From positions 1-34,041 of IMG/VR virus record IMGVR_UViG_3300019754_000012: 34,041 nucleotides of DNA; one strand, given 5' to 3'. The translations under genes were made by a program, and so were the position numbers. Below the pieces are notes generated by a model. That model had not been told where the DNA came from and ran no database searches. It was given only the letters and a program-made list of their open reading frames with translations. Shown piece after piece: positions 3,027-23,239 of this stretch. This DNA comes from a virus. Every line of letters begins with the position of its first letter. The stretch's first letter is position 1.

Positions 3027-3764
3027 TTAAAAGTCGAACTCTTGACCATTAAAAATTATGTCTTTTAATGCTTTAGATTCTTCTTTTTCTTCTTCTTTTA
3101 TAATATCTTTAAAATGAACTATTTCTTTCTTTTTTATTTTTTTATCAATAGTATTACTCTTTAATGTATATGTAAGAAGTTTAACTTTTCCATCTTGATT
3201 CAATATATCTTTATTTAAAATATCCATTTTGTAGTAAGTAATCATTTCTGTTTTTCCTGAAATTGCTACTCCGTGTTTTACAAAACTTCCATAAAATGAA
3301 TATTCTATTATCCCATTTGGAGAGTAAAACTTAGTTCCTTCATATTTTCCAATTATTTGCTTTTCTTTATTTATATCTATATGCTTATTATAGTGCGATT
3401 TACTCCTTTTTTGTATACTTTCAGATATTGAGTAAACTCTAGTATCATCTTCTATCTTCTTAACTTTATTATTTCTTTTAAATTCTTCTATCATTTCTTC
3501 AGGAGTCTTTTTAATAGTATCTTCTTTGTACTCTATTTCTTCAATAATAAAACCATTATAAGCACTGCTGTACATTTTTCCATCCAATGCCATTGCATTT
3601 TTCAATTTATAGAACTGTACATTTTCTAATTTTTTATTAACCTTTAATATTTTAAAAGCTCTTCTTGTTTTATTATTTTTCCTAACACATTCCACCAAAG
3701 AGTCTTTAAATTTTTCTATATATTTTTTTGGCTCACTAATATAAATTTCTTTTATTTGTCTCAT
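3027..3764 (-). CDS. Accessory (moron) protein of unknown function, 245 aa
   Basis: A minus-strand gene between the tape measure and Dit-like genes, ending 2 bp from the tape measure stop. Very Lys-rich and basic/acidic mixed, no TM segment or signal peptide. The N-terminal part contains a helical basic region (CVRKNNKTRRAFKILKVNKK), the middle has Tyr-rich strands (GKYEGTKFYSPNG), and the C-terminus ends in charged helices (EEEKEESKALKDIIF). I do not recognise a family. The ATG at 3764 follows AAAGGATAAGAAA, and the gene has its own TTGACT-17-TATAGT promoter. Architecture is that of a moron. Confidence 0.78.
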   Translation of the reverse strand: MRQIKEIYISEPKKYIEKFKDSLVECVRKNNKTRRAFKILKVNKKLENVQFYKLKNAMALDGKMYSSAYNGFIIEEIEYKEDTIKKTPEEMIEEFKRNNKVKKIEDDTRVYSISESIQKRSKSHYNKHIDINKEKQIIGKYEGTKFYSPNGIIEYSFYGSFVKHGVAISGKTEMITYYKMDILNKDILNQDGKVKLLTYTLKSNTIDKKIKKKEIVHFKDIIKEEEKEESKALKDIIFNGQEFDF

Positions 3765-3878
3765 TTTCTTATCCTTTAATTTTATATATGAAAACTATAC
3801 ACTTACTAAAATACAAAGTCAAGTATTATGATAAAATAAACAAATAAAAAGAAAACAATATTACAAAAGGTAACATTA
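3765..3878. promoter_or_regulatory. Divergent promoter region B (moron / Dit-like gene)
   Basis: Minus strand: -35 TTGACT (complement of 3817-3822), 17 bp, -10 TATAGT (complement of 3794-3799), leader AAAGGATAAGAAA before the moron. Plus strand: AGTATTATGATAAAAT aligns with the AGTATTATGCTATAAT of region A, placing a weaker -10 at 3832-3837 (TAAAAT). The box TATTACAAAAGGTAACA is at 3859-3875, identical to region A, and supplies the ribosome site of the Dit-like gene. Confidence 0.72.
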
Positions 3879-6223: not shown

Positions 6224-6333
6224 TTCTATATCCTTTTTATTTATATAACAATCATACACTATCAAAAATCATAAGTAAAGAATTTAGATATAATTTAATA
6301 TAAAATTTCACACGATATTACGAAAGGTAACAG
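6224..6333. promoter_or_regulatory. Divergent promoter region C (methyltransferase unit / baseplate hub)
   Basis: Minus strand: -35 TTTACT (complement of 6274-6279), 17 bp, -10 TATGAT (complement of 6251-6256), leader AAAAGGATATAGAA. The whole promoter is nearly the same as in region A (TATGATTTTTGA(C/T)AGTGTAT). Plus strand: TTTAGATATAAT with TATAAT at 6289-6294, a sequence seen again before the portal gene (31939-31950). The box TATTACGAAAGGTAACA at 6316-6332 differs by one base from regions A and B. Confidence 0.75.
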
Positions 6334-8172: not shown

Positions 8173-9341
8173 TGGCAAAAATTGACGGAACAGGAATAAG
8201 TATAGATAGCTTTAACGATCTATTTGATGCAATAGCAAGTGAGTATAAGGGTATATATGGGGAGGATATAAATCTTGACGCTTCAACTCCTGACGCTCAA
8301 AAACTTTCTATATTTGTAAAAGCATATAGAGATATGCAGGAGTTGGGTGTAGATATGTATAACTCATTCGACCCTGACACGGCTATAGGAAATCAACTTA
8401 ATAAACTGATTAAATTATGCGGTATAGATAGAATACCTGCTACTAAATCAACTGTACAAATAGAGGTAACAACAAGTGCTACAGTATCACTAACAGCTGA
8501 TTATGTGGTTAAAGATATCTTAGGTCAATTTTGGCAAATAGCAAACACACAGACGCTAACAACTGGAACTACAACAGTATCTTTCAAAGCACAAGATTAT
8601 GGAATGATTGAAGCACAAGCCAATACTATCACAGAATTTGAAACAATAGTTTTAGGTGTTGAAAGTATTACTAATCCTAATAGTGCTACGGCTGGGCGTG
8701 ATGAGGAAAGTGACACAGCATTAAAGATTAGAAGAAAAAAGAGCGTTGCTTTGCCTAGCAGGAATACTGTAGAGGGGCTAAATGCGAAACTTTTAAATGT
8801 AAACGGTGTTGTAGATGCGATTGTATATGAAAACGATGAAGATGTTTATAATGCAGAAAAAGATTTAAACGCTCATTCTATTTGGTGTGTTGTAGATGGT
8901 GGTATTCATCAAGATATTGTTAATATAATCGGACTTGATAAAGGTAGTGGTGCTGGAATGAAAGGTACTGAAGCTGGAATATATGCTGGGCAAATTCCAC
9001 GACAAGATGGAACGACTAGAAATATACAAGTGCCAGTTAATTATGACCGTCCAACCGAAGTAGAAATATTTATAACATTAGATATAAAAGCAAAAATAAG
9101 TGGTGCTACTTTAGACCCTCAAGCAATAAAAAACGCCTTAATCGAAAAGACTTTTTTCATAAATGAGGATGCAATCGTAACAGAGCTTTACTCTTATGTG
9201 TATCAAGCAAATACAAACTTTATAGCTACTAACTTACAGTTCAGTAAAGACGATATTACTTATGTTGGAGATGAATTAACAGCAGATTTTAGCGAAAAGT
9301 TTATGATAATAGATGCAAATATTACAATAACGGAGATTTAA
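8172..9341 (+). CDS. Baseplate assembly protein, gpJ / Mu gp47-like
   Basis: 389 aa, normal length for the Baseplate_J family. N-terminal IDSFNDLFDAIASEYKGIYG and LDASTPDAQKLSIF match the opening helix pattern. The central AGRDEESDTALKIRRKKSVA matches the hallmark 'GxdeEsDeaLr.R...s', and GLNAKLLNVNGVVDAIVYEND follows. Forms the wedge ring with the gp46-like partner encoded immediately upstream. ATG overlaps the upstream stop; the next gene starts 0 bp after its stop. Confidence 0.93.
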   Translation: MAKIDGTGISIDSFNDLFDAIASEYKGIYGEDINLDASTPDAQKLSIFVKAYRDMQELGVDMYNSFDPDTAIGNQLNKLIKLCGIDRIPATKSTVQIEVTTSATVSLTADYVVKDILGQFWQIANTQTLTTGTTTVSFKAQDYGMIEAQANTITEFETIVLGVESITNPNSATAGRDEESDTALKIRRKKSVALPSRNTVEGLNAKLLNVNGVVDAIVYENDEDVYNAEKDLNAHSIWCVVDGGIHQDIVNIIGLDKGSGAGMKGTEAGIYAGQIPRQDGTTRNIQVPVNYDRPTEVEIFITLDIKAKISGATLDPQAIKNALIEKTFFINEDAIVTELYSYVYQANTNFIATNLQFSKDDITYVGDELTADFSEKFMIIDANITITEI

Positions 9342-19172: not shown

Positions 19173-19808
19173 ATGAACAAATTTAAAAAATACTACACTA
19201 ATGTATTTGTAGCAGAATGTGAGGAAGCAAAAACTAAGGGAGATATAATAGTATTAGAAACTAAATATAGTAAAGAAGTTGAATGTGAAGTTTTTAATTT
19301 GGTATCTACAGCAAACAATAAATACTATTATTCAATAGTACGACTAGAAGATATGAATTATGCTGAAAAAAAAGCTACTAAATATATAAAAAGTGCAAAT
19401 GTGGCTGATAACAATAGTCATAAAGCTTGGGAAGCTTCAAAAGAGGGGGCTGAATTTTTAGTACTTGCAGAACCAATAAAAGTAGGACATCATTCAGAAA
19501 AAAGACATAGAGCGTTAATCGAAAGGAATAATAAAAGAATGTCAAAATGTGTATCAGAATCAGATAGAGCTGATACGCTTAGACAAAAATCGGAATATTG
19601 GGAGAATAAAGCAAAAGAAATAACTCTTTCTATGCCTGAAAGTTTAGAATATTTTACTTTTGAATTAGACAAAGCAAAAGAATATCACAAAGGCTTAAAA
19701 GATGGAACTATTAAAAAAGAACATAGCTATTCAGTAACTTATGCAAATAAAAAAGTAAAAGAACTTACAAAAAAAGTAGAAATAGCAAATATATTATGGG
19801 GTGTGTAA
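19173..19808 (+). CDS. DUF3560-domain protein
   Basis: 211 aa. The core AEPIKVGHHSEKRHRALIER followed by SDRADTLRQKSEYWENKAKE matches DUF3560 (conserved 'vGHHSE.rHr....r' and 'A..YW..kA'). A less conserved N-terminal part precedes it. DUF3560 occurs in phages and mobile elements, no established function. First gene of the rightward early block; RBS AAAGGATAAGTAA. Confidence 0.85.
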   Translation: MNKFKKYYTNVFVAECEEAKTKGDIIVLETKYSKEVECEVFNLVSTANNKYYYSIVRLEDMNYAEKKATKYIKSANVADNNSHKAWEASKEGAEFLVLAEPIKVGHHSEKRHRALIERNNKRMSKCVSESDRADTLRQKSEYWENKAKEITLSMPESLEYFTFELDKAKEYHKGLKDGTIKKEHSYSVTYANKKVKELTKKVEIANILWGV

Positions 19809-19809
19809 A

Positions 19810-20028
19810 ATGTATAAAACATTCAAAACAAACTCACAGAACCACAAAATACTAACTTACTTACAACAAGGTAATTCTCTAACTTGTTTAGAAGCTGTTA
19901 TCAATAACTTTTCACATAACCTTAGAAGTAGAATAGCTGATTTAAAAAGAGCTGGTTATATGATAGATGTAAAGCAAAAGAAAATAAGCGGTGGATATGT
20001 TGCTGTTTATAGTTTGAAAGGGAAGTAA
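19810..20028 (+). CDS. Helix-turn-helix protein (HTH_39-like)
   Basis: 72 aa from the ATG at 19810 (a GTG at 19801 would add three residues inside the upstream gene). NHKILTYLQQGNSLTCLEAV, LRSRIADLKRAGYMI and GYVAVYSL fit the short phage winged-helix family in which 'IL.yL..G..lT..eA' is followed by 'R..dLr..Gy.I'. Likely DNA-binding, perhaps a regulator of early genes or a replication accessory. Stop overlaps the next ATG (TAATG). Confidence 0.8.
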   Translation: MYKTFKTNSQNHKILTYLQQGNSLTCLEAVINNFSHNLRSRIADLKRAGYMIDVKQKKISGGYVAVYSLKGK

Positions 20029-20255
20029 TGAAATTTACAATAGAAGTAAACGCTAAATGCAGAAACTGCAAACATTGGGAGGTTACGACTGATGATGATA
20101 TGTATTTTTTAGAAAATGATGAAACATTTTGTAAATTAGATAATAAAAAAAGAACAGATGCAGAAGATTGTGACAAAATAGATGTCGACATACTTACGCT
20201 CAAAGACAATCTAAAAAGTGCAGGATATGAAAAAATAATATTAGGAAGAATATAA
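20028..20255 (+). CDS. Small Cys-rich (putative zinc-binding) protein, 75 aa
   Basis: CRNCKHWEV at 13-21 plus C37 and C50 gives a likely four-Cys zinc site near the N-terminus ('C.nCkhw' motif is common in small phage proteins). The C-terminal half is helical. Coupled by one-base overlaps on both sides. Function unknown. Confidence 0.7.
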   Translation: MKFTIEVNAKCRNCKHWEVTTDDDMYFLENDETFCKLDNKKRTDAEDCDKIDVDILTLKDNLKSAGYEKIILGRI

Positions 20256-20734
20256 TGAACAAAATTAAAAACAGTCAATTAAATACGATTCTAAGCTGGT
20301 TAAATCATATGTGCTTTGAAGAGATAACAAAGAAGTACAAAGAATGTAACGAAGTAGAGCGGTTAGTATATGATGTAGAAAAATACTATAGCAAAATGAA
20401 GCCAACTCAAATATGTAATAGCGATTTAGACAGAGTTACAAACAAACTTAAAGAAGTACAAACTACATTCGAAAAGGAAGAGACCTTACTTGATGAAAAC
20501 GGTAACCAAATAATGCAGGGCAAGAGTATTCAATGTATCGATTACAGTCCGCAGCTTTTAATGATAACATCTTTAGATCACTTAATCAATGTTGAGCGTG
20601 ATCTATCACTACGGATTAAATTCAGTCATATTAATTTTAATGAGTTATTTGAAGATGTAGAGAAAAAAGACAGTAAGTTGTTTTATAGCACTATGAAAAT
20701 ATATAATAAAATGATAGGGGTAATTAATGGGTAA
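20255..20734 (+). CDS. Unknown protein, 159 aa
   Basis: Predominantly helical, with ECNEVERLVYDVEKYYSKMK and DLDRVTNKLKEVQTTFEKEE. It overlaps the preceding gene by one base and the following by 8. No family recognised. Confidence 0.72.
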   Translation: MNKIKNSQLNTILSWLNHMCFEEITKKYKECNEVERLVYDVEKYYSKMKPTQICNSDLDRVTNKLKEVQTTFEKEETLLDENGNQIMQGKSIQCIDYSPQLLMITSLDHLINVERDLSLRIKFSHINFNELFEDVEKKDSKLFYSTMKIYNKMIGVING

Positions 20735-20969
20735 TAATAATATAGAAAAAGTACCGGTTATATTAACAAAAGAAAACTATAAAAAGCTTTTGGATATTGG
20801 TTATAGTATGGGAGAATTTGACTTAAGTGATGATAATATAATAAATACAGCTCTTGGAGTTTTGTTACAAAAAGATGAAATGAATCTAGCTTCAAATATA
20901 GAGAACTTGGTTTATTGCTTAACTAACAACCATAAAGAAGAAGCAAAAAAGAAATTTAAAATAGTTTAA
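20727..20969 (+). CDS. Unknown protein, 80 aa
   Basis: VPVILTKENYKKLLDIGYSM begins a helical protein with a short acidic middle. ATG lies inside the end of the previous gene behind AGGGGTAATTA. Last gene before the structured leader. The stop is within a run of TTTAAAATAG direct repeats. Confidence 0.65.
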   Translation: MGNNNIEKVPVILTKENYKKLLDIGYSMGEFDLSDDNIINTALGVLLQKDEMNLASNIENLVYCLTNNHKEEAKKKFKIV

Positions 20970-20981
20970 AATAGTTTAAAA
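20955..20981 (+). repeat. AT-rich 10-bp direct repeat TTTAAAATAG
   Basis: TTTAAAATAG at 20955-20964 and 20965-20974, then a partial copy TTTAAAA to 20981. It straddles the stop of the 80-aa gene and lies just before the strong promoter at 20992. It could be an easily melted element; it may also be slippage of low-complexity sequence. Confidence 0.6.
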
Positions 20982-20991
20982 AGCATATCAC

Positions 20992-21020
20992 TTGATAATT
21001 AATTTATCTTGTGGTATAAT
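20992..21020 (+). promoter_or_regulatory. Strong sigma70-type promoter of the structured leader
   Basis: TTGATA (20992-20997), 17 bp, TATAAT (21015-21020). It is the closest match to consensus in the window. Start of transcription is expected near 21027, giving a leader of about 175 nt before the next ATG at 21201. Confidence 0.85.
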
Positions 21021-21050
21021 ACATACATAATATTTTAATAAAAAGTTTTT

Positions 21051-21171
21051 TCTAACCAGAGGGTCGAAGTTCTAGGAACTAAAGCGATTGTCACTCGATA
21101 AGAGCTTTGGTTAGAGTAAATATAATTATTTAAAAATAATCTGATTATGAACTTCGACCCTCATTAATCAG
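21051..21171 (+). ncRNA. Structured leader RNA or small RNA with pseudoknot-like repeats
   Basis: No gene fits 20970-21200. Pairing elements: a TCTAACCA (21051-21058) with a' TGGTTAGA (21108-21115), 8 bp; b GAGGGTCGAAGTTC (21059-21072) with b' GAACTTCGACCCTC (21149-21162), 14 bp perfect; c CTGATTA (21141-21147) with c' TAATCAG (21165-21171), 7 bp, followed by TTTT. Also CTAAAGC (21079-21085) with GCTTTGG (21104-21110), and AGTTC/GAACT around a 3-nt loop (21068-21080). The order a-b-a'-b' gives a pseudoknot if both form, and c/c' encloses b', so b-b' and c-c' pairing compete. This is how attenuators and riboswitches are built. It does not match a tRNA, tmRNA or any RNA family I recognise. No reverse transcriptase is near, which argues against a retron. 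Confidence 0.7.
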
Positions 21172-21200
21172 TTTTACTACTATAGTCGATAGGAATAAAA

Positions 21201-21443
21201 ATGAAAAAAGAAATAAACATGCTTAGTAATTTATTTACTACAGATTACAGACTAAAATTAGTCAAAAATTCAGAATTTAAACTTTACACTAATGGAAAGA
21301 TAAACTTACCACCTGAGGACATTAGACTTTCTTTAATTGTAAATAACAAAAATCTAAACTTTTCAGAAAAAGCTGAAGAATTAAGAAGAGTTAAAAGACA
21401 TATCATTGATACAGATGAGGTATTAACTTATGAAAAGAGATAG
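21201..21443 (+). CDS. Unknown protein, 80 aa, behind the structured leader
   Basis: Charged, with SNLFTTDYRLKLVKNSEFKL and a helical C-terminus (FSEKAEELRRVKRHIIDTDE). ATG after AGGAATAAAA. It overlaps the DUF6291 gene by 14 bases. If the leader is regulatory, this gene and the replication genes behind it are the targets. Confidence 0.7.
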   Translation: MKKEINMLSNLFTTDYRLKLVKNSEFKLYTNGKINLPPEDIRLSLIVNNKNLNFSEKAEELRRVKRHIIDTDEVLTYEKR

Positions 21444-22020
21444 TTTTATATTTTATAGAAGTTTCTATGAAGCTTTAAATGATATGCCTAATGAGTCACA
21501 ATTAAAGATATATCAAGCTATAGCAATGTTTAGTATGGATTTTAAAGATCCTGAACTTACTGGAATAGAAGCAACAATATTTAAACTAATTAAGCCACAA
21601 TTAGAAGCAAATAATAAGCGATATGAGAACGGAAGCAAACCAAAACAGAAGCAAAACAGAAGCAAAACAGAAGCAAAACAGAAGCAAGATGAAAGCAAAA
21701 ATAAAGCAGAAGAAAGCAAAGAGGAAGCTAATAAGAATGATAATGTAAATGAGAATAACAATAACAATAAGAAATTTTCTTTTTCTTTATCTTCTACTAA
21801 ACAGATTTCTAATACAAGTAAAGAGTATCAAGCTAAATTAAAAGAGTATATTCTATCAACTAATTCAAAAATGACTTTTGAAGATTTTTATGATAGTTGT
21901 GAAATGAAAGGGTATAAATATAAAAACTTTAAACTTGCATTTAATAACTGGAATAAGAAAAATGACAATAACGAAAATAAAAACATTAGGGGAATAGGAG
22001 CTAATTACTTAAATGGATAA
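21430..22020 (+). CDS. DUF6291-type replication-associated protein
   Basis: 196 aa. N-terminal RDSFIFYRSFYEALNDMPNE, then LKIYQAIAMFS and FKLIKPQLEANNKRYENGSK, is the DUF6291 signature ('DSFvFYrSF.eai', 'i.P.ie.n..Ry.nG'). A low-complexity Lys/Gln/Asn linker follows (residues about 70-118), encoded by 11-bp iterons, and the C-terminal domain (TFEDFYDSCEMKGYKYKNFK) resembles the small DNA-binding ends of phage replication organisers. It overlaps the DnaB-like gene by 8 bases, so an initiator or helicase-loader role is likely. Confidence 0.8.
   Translation: MKRDSFIFYRSFYEALNDMPNESQLKIYQAIAMFSMDFKDPELTGIEATIFKLIKPQLEANNKRYENGSKPKQKQNRSKTEAKQKQDESKNKAEESKEEANKNDNVNENNNNNKKFSFSLSSTKQISNTSKEYQAKLKEYILSTNSKMTFEDFYDSCEMKGYKYKNFKLAFNNWNKKNDNNENKNIRGIGANYLNG
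21642..21685 (+). repeat. Four tandem 11-bp iterons AAAACAGAAGC
   Basis: Exact copies at 21642-21652, 21653-21663, 21664-21674 and 21675-21685, with further degenerate GAAGCAAA units at about 21632-21640 and 21690-21728. The strand carries no T in this stretch. The unit is not a multiple of three, so the repeat is not simply a protein repeat. Iterons inside an initiator gene recall the lambda O origin. Confidence 0.8.
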
Positions 22021-23239
22021 TACATATACTTTAAACATAGAGAGAGCTATCTTATCAAGCGTTTTATTTGATTATGAGGTAATGACAACATTAACAGAAA
22101 CTTTAAAGCCTAGTGACTTCTATCTACCAGCACACGAAGTAATATTTGAAACTATGATAAAAATGTTCAATGAAAATTTACCATTAGATGAAGATTTTTT
22201 AAGAAAAAGAATTGATCCAAAAGTTGTAAGTGATAATGTATTGATTGAAATATTAACAGCTAATCCGATTTCAAATATAATGGCATATATACAAGATATT
22301 AGAGAGGGTGCAAGACTTAGATATTTAACAAAACTTTCTACTAATATAAAAAAACAAGCATTAGAAAATGAAATATCTTCAAATGAAATATCAGATTTTA
22401 TTAAAAAGAGTATTGATGATATGGATGCAGACATTGACAATATAGAAGATTTTAGTGGTGATGATATTATGAATACACATTTTGAAAAAGTGCCTTTATT
22501 TACGACTGGTATTGATTGTATAGATGATGAAATTGATGGAATAGCAAACGGACAATTAATTTATGTTACTGGACTTGAAGAAACAGGAAAAACACATATC
22601 ACATATAAAATTATGGAAAACATTAGCCAGTCAAGAAAAACTGGAATAATATCTTTAGAATTTGGAAAAGAAAAATTAAAAGATAGATTATCAAATATGA
22701 TTAAAAATAATCATCAGTTAAATCCATCTAATATAAAAGCTTCTTTTAATTGTCATAGCATTACAAAGTTAGAAAAAACTATTAGAAAATGGGCGAATGA
22801 TGGATGCAAATTTGTTGTTGTAGATTCGATAAACTTAATTGAGAACTCTTTAATTAAAGATAGATTTGAGCGTGTTTTAAACATAGGTACAAGACTATTC
22901 AAATTAGTTCAGCAATTAAATATAACAATGTTTGTAATTAGCACAAGTACAAAAGAAGATAATAAAAACGGAAACCCTAGTATATATGGTGGTCAATTAT
23001 TAAATAACTATTGTGACCAAAAGTGGCATATATTTAGAGATTTTGAAACAGAGGGTAGAATGTTATGGATCAATAAAAACAAACAAAATTTTAGATACCC
23101 AAAAATAGAATTAGATTTTTCAAAAGAGGGACATATATATAAAAAAGGTGAATTTTACAGAACTAGAAAAGAACCGGAAATTACTGAATATAAAATGGAT
23201 GAAACAGTAAATGTAGATATTCCTGATATAGATTATTAA
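22013..23239 (+). CDS. Replicative DNA helicase, DnaB-like
   Basis: 408 aa. N-terminal domain starts NIERAILSSVLFDYEVM and ends IMAYIQDIREGARLR, as in DnaB. RecA-type ATPase domain: Walker A GLEETGKT (187-194), EFGKEKLKDRL after it, Walker B KFVVVDSINL (266-275) and a SIYGG-type segment near 330. The second Glu-rich Walker A (GLEE) differs from the usual GRPSMGKT. Unwinds DNA at the phage fork; no primase or polymerase is seen, so it probably recruits host enzymes. Somewhat shorter than cellular DnaB (about 450-480). Confidence 0.92.
   Translation: MDNTYTLNIERAILSSVLFDYEVMTTLTETLKPSDFYLPAHEVIFETMIKMFNENLPLDEDFLRKRIDPKVVSDNVLIEILTANPISNIMAYIQDIREGARLRYLTKLSTNIKKQALENEISSNEISDFIKKSIDDMDADIDNIEDFSGDDIMNTHFEKVPLFTTGIDCIDDEIDGIANGQLIYVTGLEETGKTHITYKIMENISQSRKTGIISLEFGKEKLKDRLSNMIKNNHQLNPSNIKASFNCHSITKLEKTIRKWANDGCKFVVVDSINLIENSLIKDRFERVLNIGTRLFKLVQQLNITMFVISTSTKEDNKNGNPSIYGGQLLNNYCDQKWHIFRDFETEGRMLWINKNKQNFRYPKIELDFSKEGHIYKKGEFYRTRKEPEITEYKMDETVNVDIPDIDY

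Follow-up and report, generated by a model that had tools for sequence, protein, structure and literature searches.

Replication operon and promoter

The window, i.e. the whole stretch of 34,041 nt that was analysed (IMGVR_UViG_3300019754_000012), comes, by gene content, from a tailed phage whose baseplate is of the contractile type. It is a permuted portion of a 42,828-bp circle, of which it lacks an 8.8-kb part with head and tail genes. The entire circle is contained in contig G001 with a 123-bp end repeat; since this contig is identical to the window over the 11.2 kb that were compared first, it adds no evolutionary information. No tRNA or tmRNA was found. The replication operon and the region preceding it comprise the following features:

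20986–21016, no strand: imperfect dyad spanning the promoter, TATCACTTGATAA-TTAATT-TATCTTGTGGTA, near-identical in G008 and G009
20992–21020, plus strand: promoter with extended −10 (sequence match)
21027–21200, plus strand: untranslated leader (fold z −4.8, best two-hairpin score of the genome)
21201–21443, plus strand: ORF of 80 aa that opens the operon, without family assignment (ORF list, family search)
21430–22020, plus strand: DUF6291 protein (family search)
21641–21687, plus strand: 11-bp repeat CAAAACAGAAG in 4.3 perfect copies, candidate iterons of an origin inside the DUF6291 gene (repeat search)
22013–23239, plus strand: DnaB-like replicative helicase (family search)

Judging from its position and the iterons, the DUF6291 protein is likely the replication initiator, and as in lambda O the candidate iteron origin lies inside the gene. 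For the helicase, the best model (NCBIfam PRK08506) and a best phage match from Sulfurimonas hint at a host in the Campylobacterota. Relatives searched via DnaB or the 80-aa protein were contigs of the same phage only, no GTDB relative was found via DnaB, and BLAST of the leader against phages and plasmids gave no match.

The near-consensus promoter reported in the first-pass annotation is present on the plus strand as TTGATA-17-TATAAT, with 11 of 12 matches and a TG ahead of the −10, and from its position we infer a leader 5' end at 21027. On the minus strand of the locus only a weak 9/12 promoter match was detected. The conserved motif, TTGATAANNNANNTATCTTNTGGTATAAT, was encountered in three viral contigs only, as a single copy each and always heading a replication operon. 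The dyad over −35 to −10 (TACCACTTGATAA..TTATC..GTGGTA; window 20986–21016, L157 2710–2740, L156 12937–12967) occurs once per genome, is kept including its spacer in the three phages and is a possible to likely operator of some regulator. A small HTH_39 winged-helix protein is encoded 5' of the conserved promoter in the window (19801–20028) and in L156 (12690–12953), and is a candidate ligand of the dyad.

Anatomy of the leader

About 175 nt downstream of the promoter had been described as free of ORFs, and no credible ORF was found there: the leader has no plus-strand ORF of at least 50 aa, and its reading frames comprise just 6–8 codons without a good Shine-Dalgarno sequence. Its structural elements are:

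21050–21061, plus strand: 5' arm of hairpin 1 (stem b; chance p = 0.0045 for an equally good hairpin around the P1 arm)
21059–21072, plus strand: 5' arm of P1, GAGGGTCGAAGTTC, inside hairpin 1 (inverted-repeat search, fold prediction)
21077–21112, plus strand: P2 hairpin with a tandem G-A internal loop and two G-U pairs, rival of stem b (z −4.9)
21105–21116, plus strand: 3' arm of hairpin 1 (b'), common to P2 (inverted repeat, fold prediction)
21141–21171, plus strand: hairpin 2, with stem c (21141–21147/21165–21171) and the 3' arm of P1 as its loop (inverted repeat, shuffles with P1 fixed)
21149–21162, plus strand: 3' arm of P1, GAACTTCGACCCTC (inverted-repeat search)

All three inverted repeats of the first-pass annotation were recovered, namely the perfect 14-bp repeat (P1, 21059–21072/21149–21162), the 8-bp repeat (21051–21058/21108–21115), which lengthens to 12 pairs once G-U is allowed, and stem c followed by TTTT; the first two cross in pseudoknot order, as had been reported. 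P1 is the longest perfect inverted repeat in the whole 42.8-kb genome, and no third copy of its arm was found elsewhere in the genome with up to 2 mismatches allowed. Whole-window shuffles yielded a mean of 0.1 such 14-bp repeats within 200 nt, and local-region shuffles reached 14 bp in 4 of 3000 cases. An additional hairpin, P2, was absent from the earlier annotation (21077–21085/21104–21112 and 21088–21092/21097–21101). Read from its sequence, the leader is an arrangement of two predicted hairpins, each enclosing one of two complementary 14-nt segments.

The terminator hinted at by the TTTT was not borne out, as no terminator-like site was found at 20000–22500; where an intrinsic-terminator attenuator would have a GC-rich stem with a U run before the first gene, the leader offers stem c with its 2 G-C pairs, followed by UUUU. 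P1 does not overlap the Shine-Dalgarno sequence, and complementarity between leader segments and a ribosome-binding site (RBS) in the window was not above chance (p 0.37–0.57). The RBS was likewise rejected as a target of the leaders in the two related phages, G008 and G009, where complementarity remained within chance.

Predicted folding

The leader is predicted to fold at −43.7 kcal/mol compared with −26.9 for shuffled sequences. P2 reaches a predicted −15.9 kcal/mol as the plus strand versus −4.6 as the minus strand and is stable only as plus-strand RNA because of its G-U pairs and tandem G-A. The strand GCUUUGGUUAGA (3') has two partners, either UCUAACCAGAG, giving stem b of hairpin 1, or AACUAAAGC, giving P2. 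When successive prefixes were folded, stem b was predicted to form first (−23.9 kcal/mol) and to be displaced by P1 and P2 (−42.4) when the 3' arm is made, so that in the final predicted fold P1 and P2 stand together and the 8-bp stem b and stem c are unformed. There, P2 and a weak AU hairpin lie within P1, likewise in G008 and not in G009. The predicted probability of P1 in cis exceeds 0.99, which leaves little free loop for action in trans, unless the RNA is cut.

This order of events is what a folding switch acting solely in cis would display, in which hairpin 1 forms first and its refolding to P1 and P2 times or gates how the operon is transcribed or translated. The predicted intermediate giving way to the final fold and the competition between P2 and stem b speak for it; the window, however, is without a terminator or a buried Shine-Dalgarno sequence to control, and the complete difference of loop letters between phages described below is not explained by such a switch itself. 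We regard it as rather unlikely.

Leaders of two further phages under the same promoter

G008 (IMGVR_UViG_3300019762_000018) was reached via the gene just upstream of the promoter (20255–20734) and shares 87% identity over 61 nt in the promoter region, and G009 (IMGVR_UViG_3300019766_000014) was found by a promoter-motif scan. The promoter is nearly identical in the three phages, which are otherwise mosaic and encode different proteins, initiator-like and DnaB-like, in the operon behind it. Their leaders cannot be aligned past the promoter, yet they have the same layout, with a complement shared between hairpin 1 and hairpin 2 of 14 nt in the window, 15 nt in G008 and 8 nt in G009. In G008 the 15-nt P1 is GCGUCCUAGUUCAGC/GCUGAAUUAGGACGC with one G-U pair, the stem of hairpin 1 UUUGUUG/CAACAAA, P2 GUCCAUAUC/GAUAUGGGC and the stem of hairpin 2 UUAGAUUA/UAAUCUAA. 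In G009, hairpin 1 has 16 pairs and the loop UGGCGGGU, and hairpin 2 (AAGAAU/AUUCUU) contains AUCCGCCA. A near copy of the dyad half-site lies inside the P2 hairpin of G008 (L157 2868). As to whether the arms are conserved in related phages, layout and complementarity recur, but the sequence itself is not conserved.

A score for a complement held in two hairpins, devised once the layout was known from the three phages and before the results on P4 and the DUF6291 relatives, exceeded that of all 400 shuffles for both the window and G008 and gave p = 0.0025 in G009. A blind scan of 3094 windows on both strands, covering the whole of the first phage, 15 kb of G008 and 20 kb of G009, placed the leader first in the searched sequence of each, with the plus strand best. 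With P1 held fixed, both enclosing hairpins arose jointly in 0 of 2000 shuffles in each of the three phages. Fold z values were −4.8 (window), −4.4 (G008) and −3.1 (G009). A pattern search with 10-bp arms returned two matches, both rejected as chance in GC-rich contigs.

These data bear on whether the repeats act as DNA, i.e. as a protein-binding dyad, a cruciform or a single-strand initiation site. Replication genes and iterons are close by, the promoter dyad is conserved, and the minus strand of G008 folds as well as its plus strand; nevertheless, P2 is stable solely as plus-strand RNA, the plus strand is top-scoring in each phage and a strong conserved promoter precedes the element, so that a DNA element is very improbable. 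An RNase III processing site or a 5' stabilising structure, whose helices would be read by shape and at which the mRNA would be trimmed without any switch, agrees with the continuous 14–16 bp helix in all three leaders, with the lack of a fixed sequence motif and with a window without terminator or RBS target; recognition by shape alone would let the sequence drift while pairing is kept. Such a site does not predict a second hairpin wrapping each P1 arm, and it leaves unexplained the compensated 8-nt loops of the DUF6291 relatives (see below), one set of which matches the RBS. We therefore assign it a low probability.

Comparison with known RNAs

The Rfam search that the first-pass annotation had suggested assigned the leader to no family: the window at gathering score and the leader at E ≤ 5 gave only a chance plastid match. 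The statement that no phage RNA family has this layout was mistaken, as the CI/C4 immunity RNA of phage P4 is built in this way. By pairing with seqA and seqC, the CI RNA shuts off P4's own replication genes (PMC4825925). As a positive control, the same scanner ranked the CI leader first in all of P4 and detected GGCAGCCUCC at 8487 and GGAGGCUGCC at 8377, the latter being the Shine-Dalgarno sequence of the following gene; Rfam placed C4 at 8420–8507 (score 74.9) and isrK upstream in the seqA region (score 60.8). Since the scanner recovers this known locus, it might serve to find further leaders.

Like P4 CI/C4 (RF01695), the leader of the window is untranslated, heads a replication operon and holds complementary segments in hairpins of one transcript, and the long closing helix with two inner hairpins of the C4 consensus has a possible counterpart in P1 with P2 and a weak third hairpin. 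Unlike C4, it is without an Rfam match and without the C4 conserved sequence; the C4 gathering score was reached neither by the window, nor by its leader (E ≤ 5), nor by 12 related loci. Where CI has one antisense segment with seqA- and seqC-like targets, the window has a single complement, none at the RBS, and no integrase was found. The IsrK leader of prophage Gifsy-1 is both a small RNA and a part of the mRNA and adopts alternative structures (PMC4825925). It resembles our leader in the latter respect, but has its own terminator, activates translation and belongs to a family (RF01394) whose gathering score was not attained by the window or the related loci. On this sequence evidence, the leader appears to be a real, undescribed RNA whose layout and position are those of the P4-CI/C4 kind, and by test not a member of C4 or isrK. 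In plasmid leaders controlled by antisense RNA, the antisense RNA arises from the opposite strand with its own promoter, unlike in the window with its weak match only. Two reports describe stem-loop RNAs, pIP501 RNAIII and pMV158 RNAII, which control replication initiator genes (PMC4981023, PMC4485353), and in its place ahead of such a gene the leader is similar to them.

Kissing hairpins upstream of homologous DUF6291 genes

Nine kissing hairpins with a score ≤ −38, several of them from near-identical contigs, lie directly ahead of DUF6291 homologues, compared with 0.7 expected and 0 of 129 in a coding control. Loci L013, L014, L016 and L017 have the loops AGGUUCAA and UUGAACCU; the RBS and start codon of DUF6291 are a third copy, AGGUUCAAUG. 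In L028, which is alignable with this group on both sides, the corresponding elements are GGACUGAU, AUCAGUCC and, at the RBS, GGACUGAUG, so that compensatory changes extend across three elements including the RBS; an antisense segment with upstream and downstream targets, as in P4, is thus present in these relatives. A further compensatory loop change leads from CAUUCGAC/GUCGAAUG in L020 and L022 to UAUCUGAC/GUCAGAUA in L029. Computed loop pairing averaged −17.0 kcal/mol for cognate and −4.1 for non-cognate loops. In L099 and in L038/L039 the hairpin that carries the second loop is followed by a U run. For the loop of L099, AAGUUGCUAAAAG, a strong intrinsic terminator (AAUGCCCUU..AAAAGGGCAUUUUUUUU) carries a 13-nt complement in its own loop, and this element looks like an attenuator. 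Rfam gave no match at the 12 related loci. These hairpins share layout and gene context with the leader of the window; homology is not claimed.

Proposed control of replication

The structured leader with mutually exclusive stems proposed earlier is well supported, since its layout recurs in G008 and G009 and before DUF6291 genes. Of its possible functions, that of an attenuator or an RNA of antisense type fits best; an origin RNA found no support, and the candidate origin is situated inside the DUF6291 gene. On balance, and with moderate confidence, we favour a leader that would regulate the replication operon via loop-loop pairing in the manner of P4 CI (C4-type). The 21027–21200 transcript would be made as the regulatory leader RNA of the operon, one hairpin holding a specificity sequence and the second its complement, and their pairing would decide expression of the downstream replication genes: hairpin 1 would be displaced by P1 and P2 during transcription, and pairing would reduce operon expression. 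Against this reading stand the absence of an RBS complement and of a terminator and the predicted near-constant formation of P1 in cis, as do the equally good minus-strand fold of G008, the restriction of the promoter to three phages and the pairing of only 8 nt in G009. In the least certain step, one hairpin would be cut out and act in trans with phage-specific letters, conferring superinfection immunity or copy control; such phage-specific trans action is possible, though doubtful. Integrase families (tyrosine or serine) were not found in this phage, G008 or G009, and all HTH_3 repressor matches in the three stayed below cut-off, which gives lysogeny no support.

Only tentatively do we suggest that an undescribed class of RNA-based replication control or superinfection immunity is widespread among phages whose replication modules are of the DUF6291 type. 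Paired hairpins, their loops changing fast and specific to the phage, would there act in trans as substitutes for a protein repressor, and each set of loops would delimit a separate immunity group. If true, RNA immunity of the P4/P1 kind would extend beyond enterobacterial satellites and P1-like phages and would be found, written in many letter codes, at the replication operons of tailed phages that are unrelated and without recognisable repressors, and the compensated loops provide directly testable predictions of specificity.

Further repeats

In Sulfurimonas phage SNW-1, a distant prophage reported to be likely extrachromosomal (PMC11290706), the hairpin loop UUCCUAUUACA before dnaB (L010 3781–3860) complements UGUAAUAGGAA at the Shine-Dalgarno sequence of a small ORF, and a second 9-nt complement follows; as an example these repeats were discarded, being unremarkable in their own genome by the same score. 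The window also contains intergenic elements of about 105 bp at 1504–1617, 3743–3875 and 6229–6332, with two others in the rest of G001. They are 72–83% identical, end with TTACAAAAGGTAAC ahead of late genes, each adjoin a reversed small gene and are probably copies of a two-way promoter element that belongs to moron insertions.
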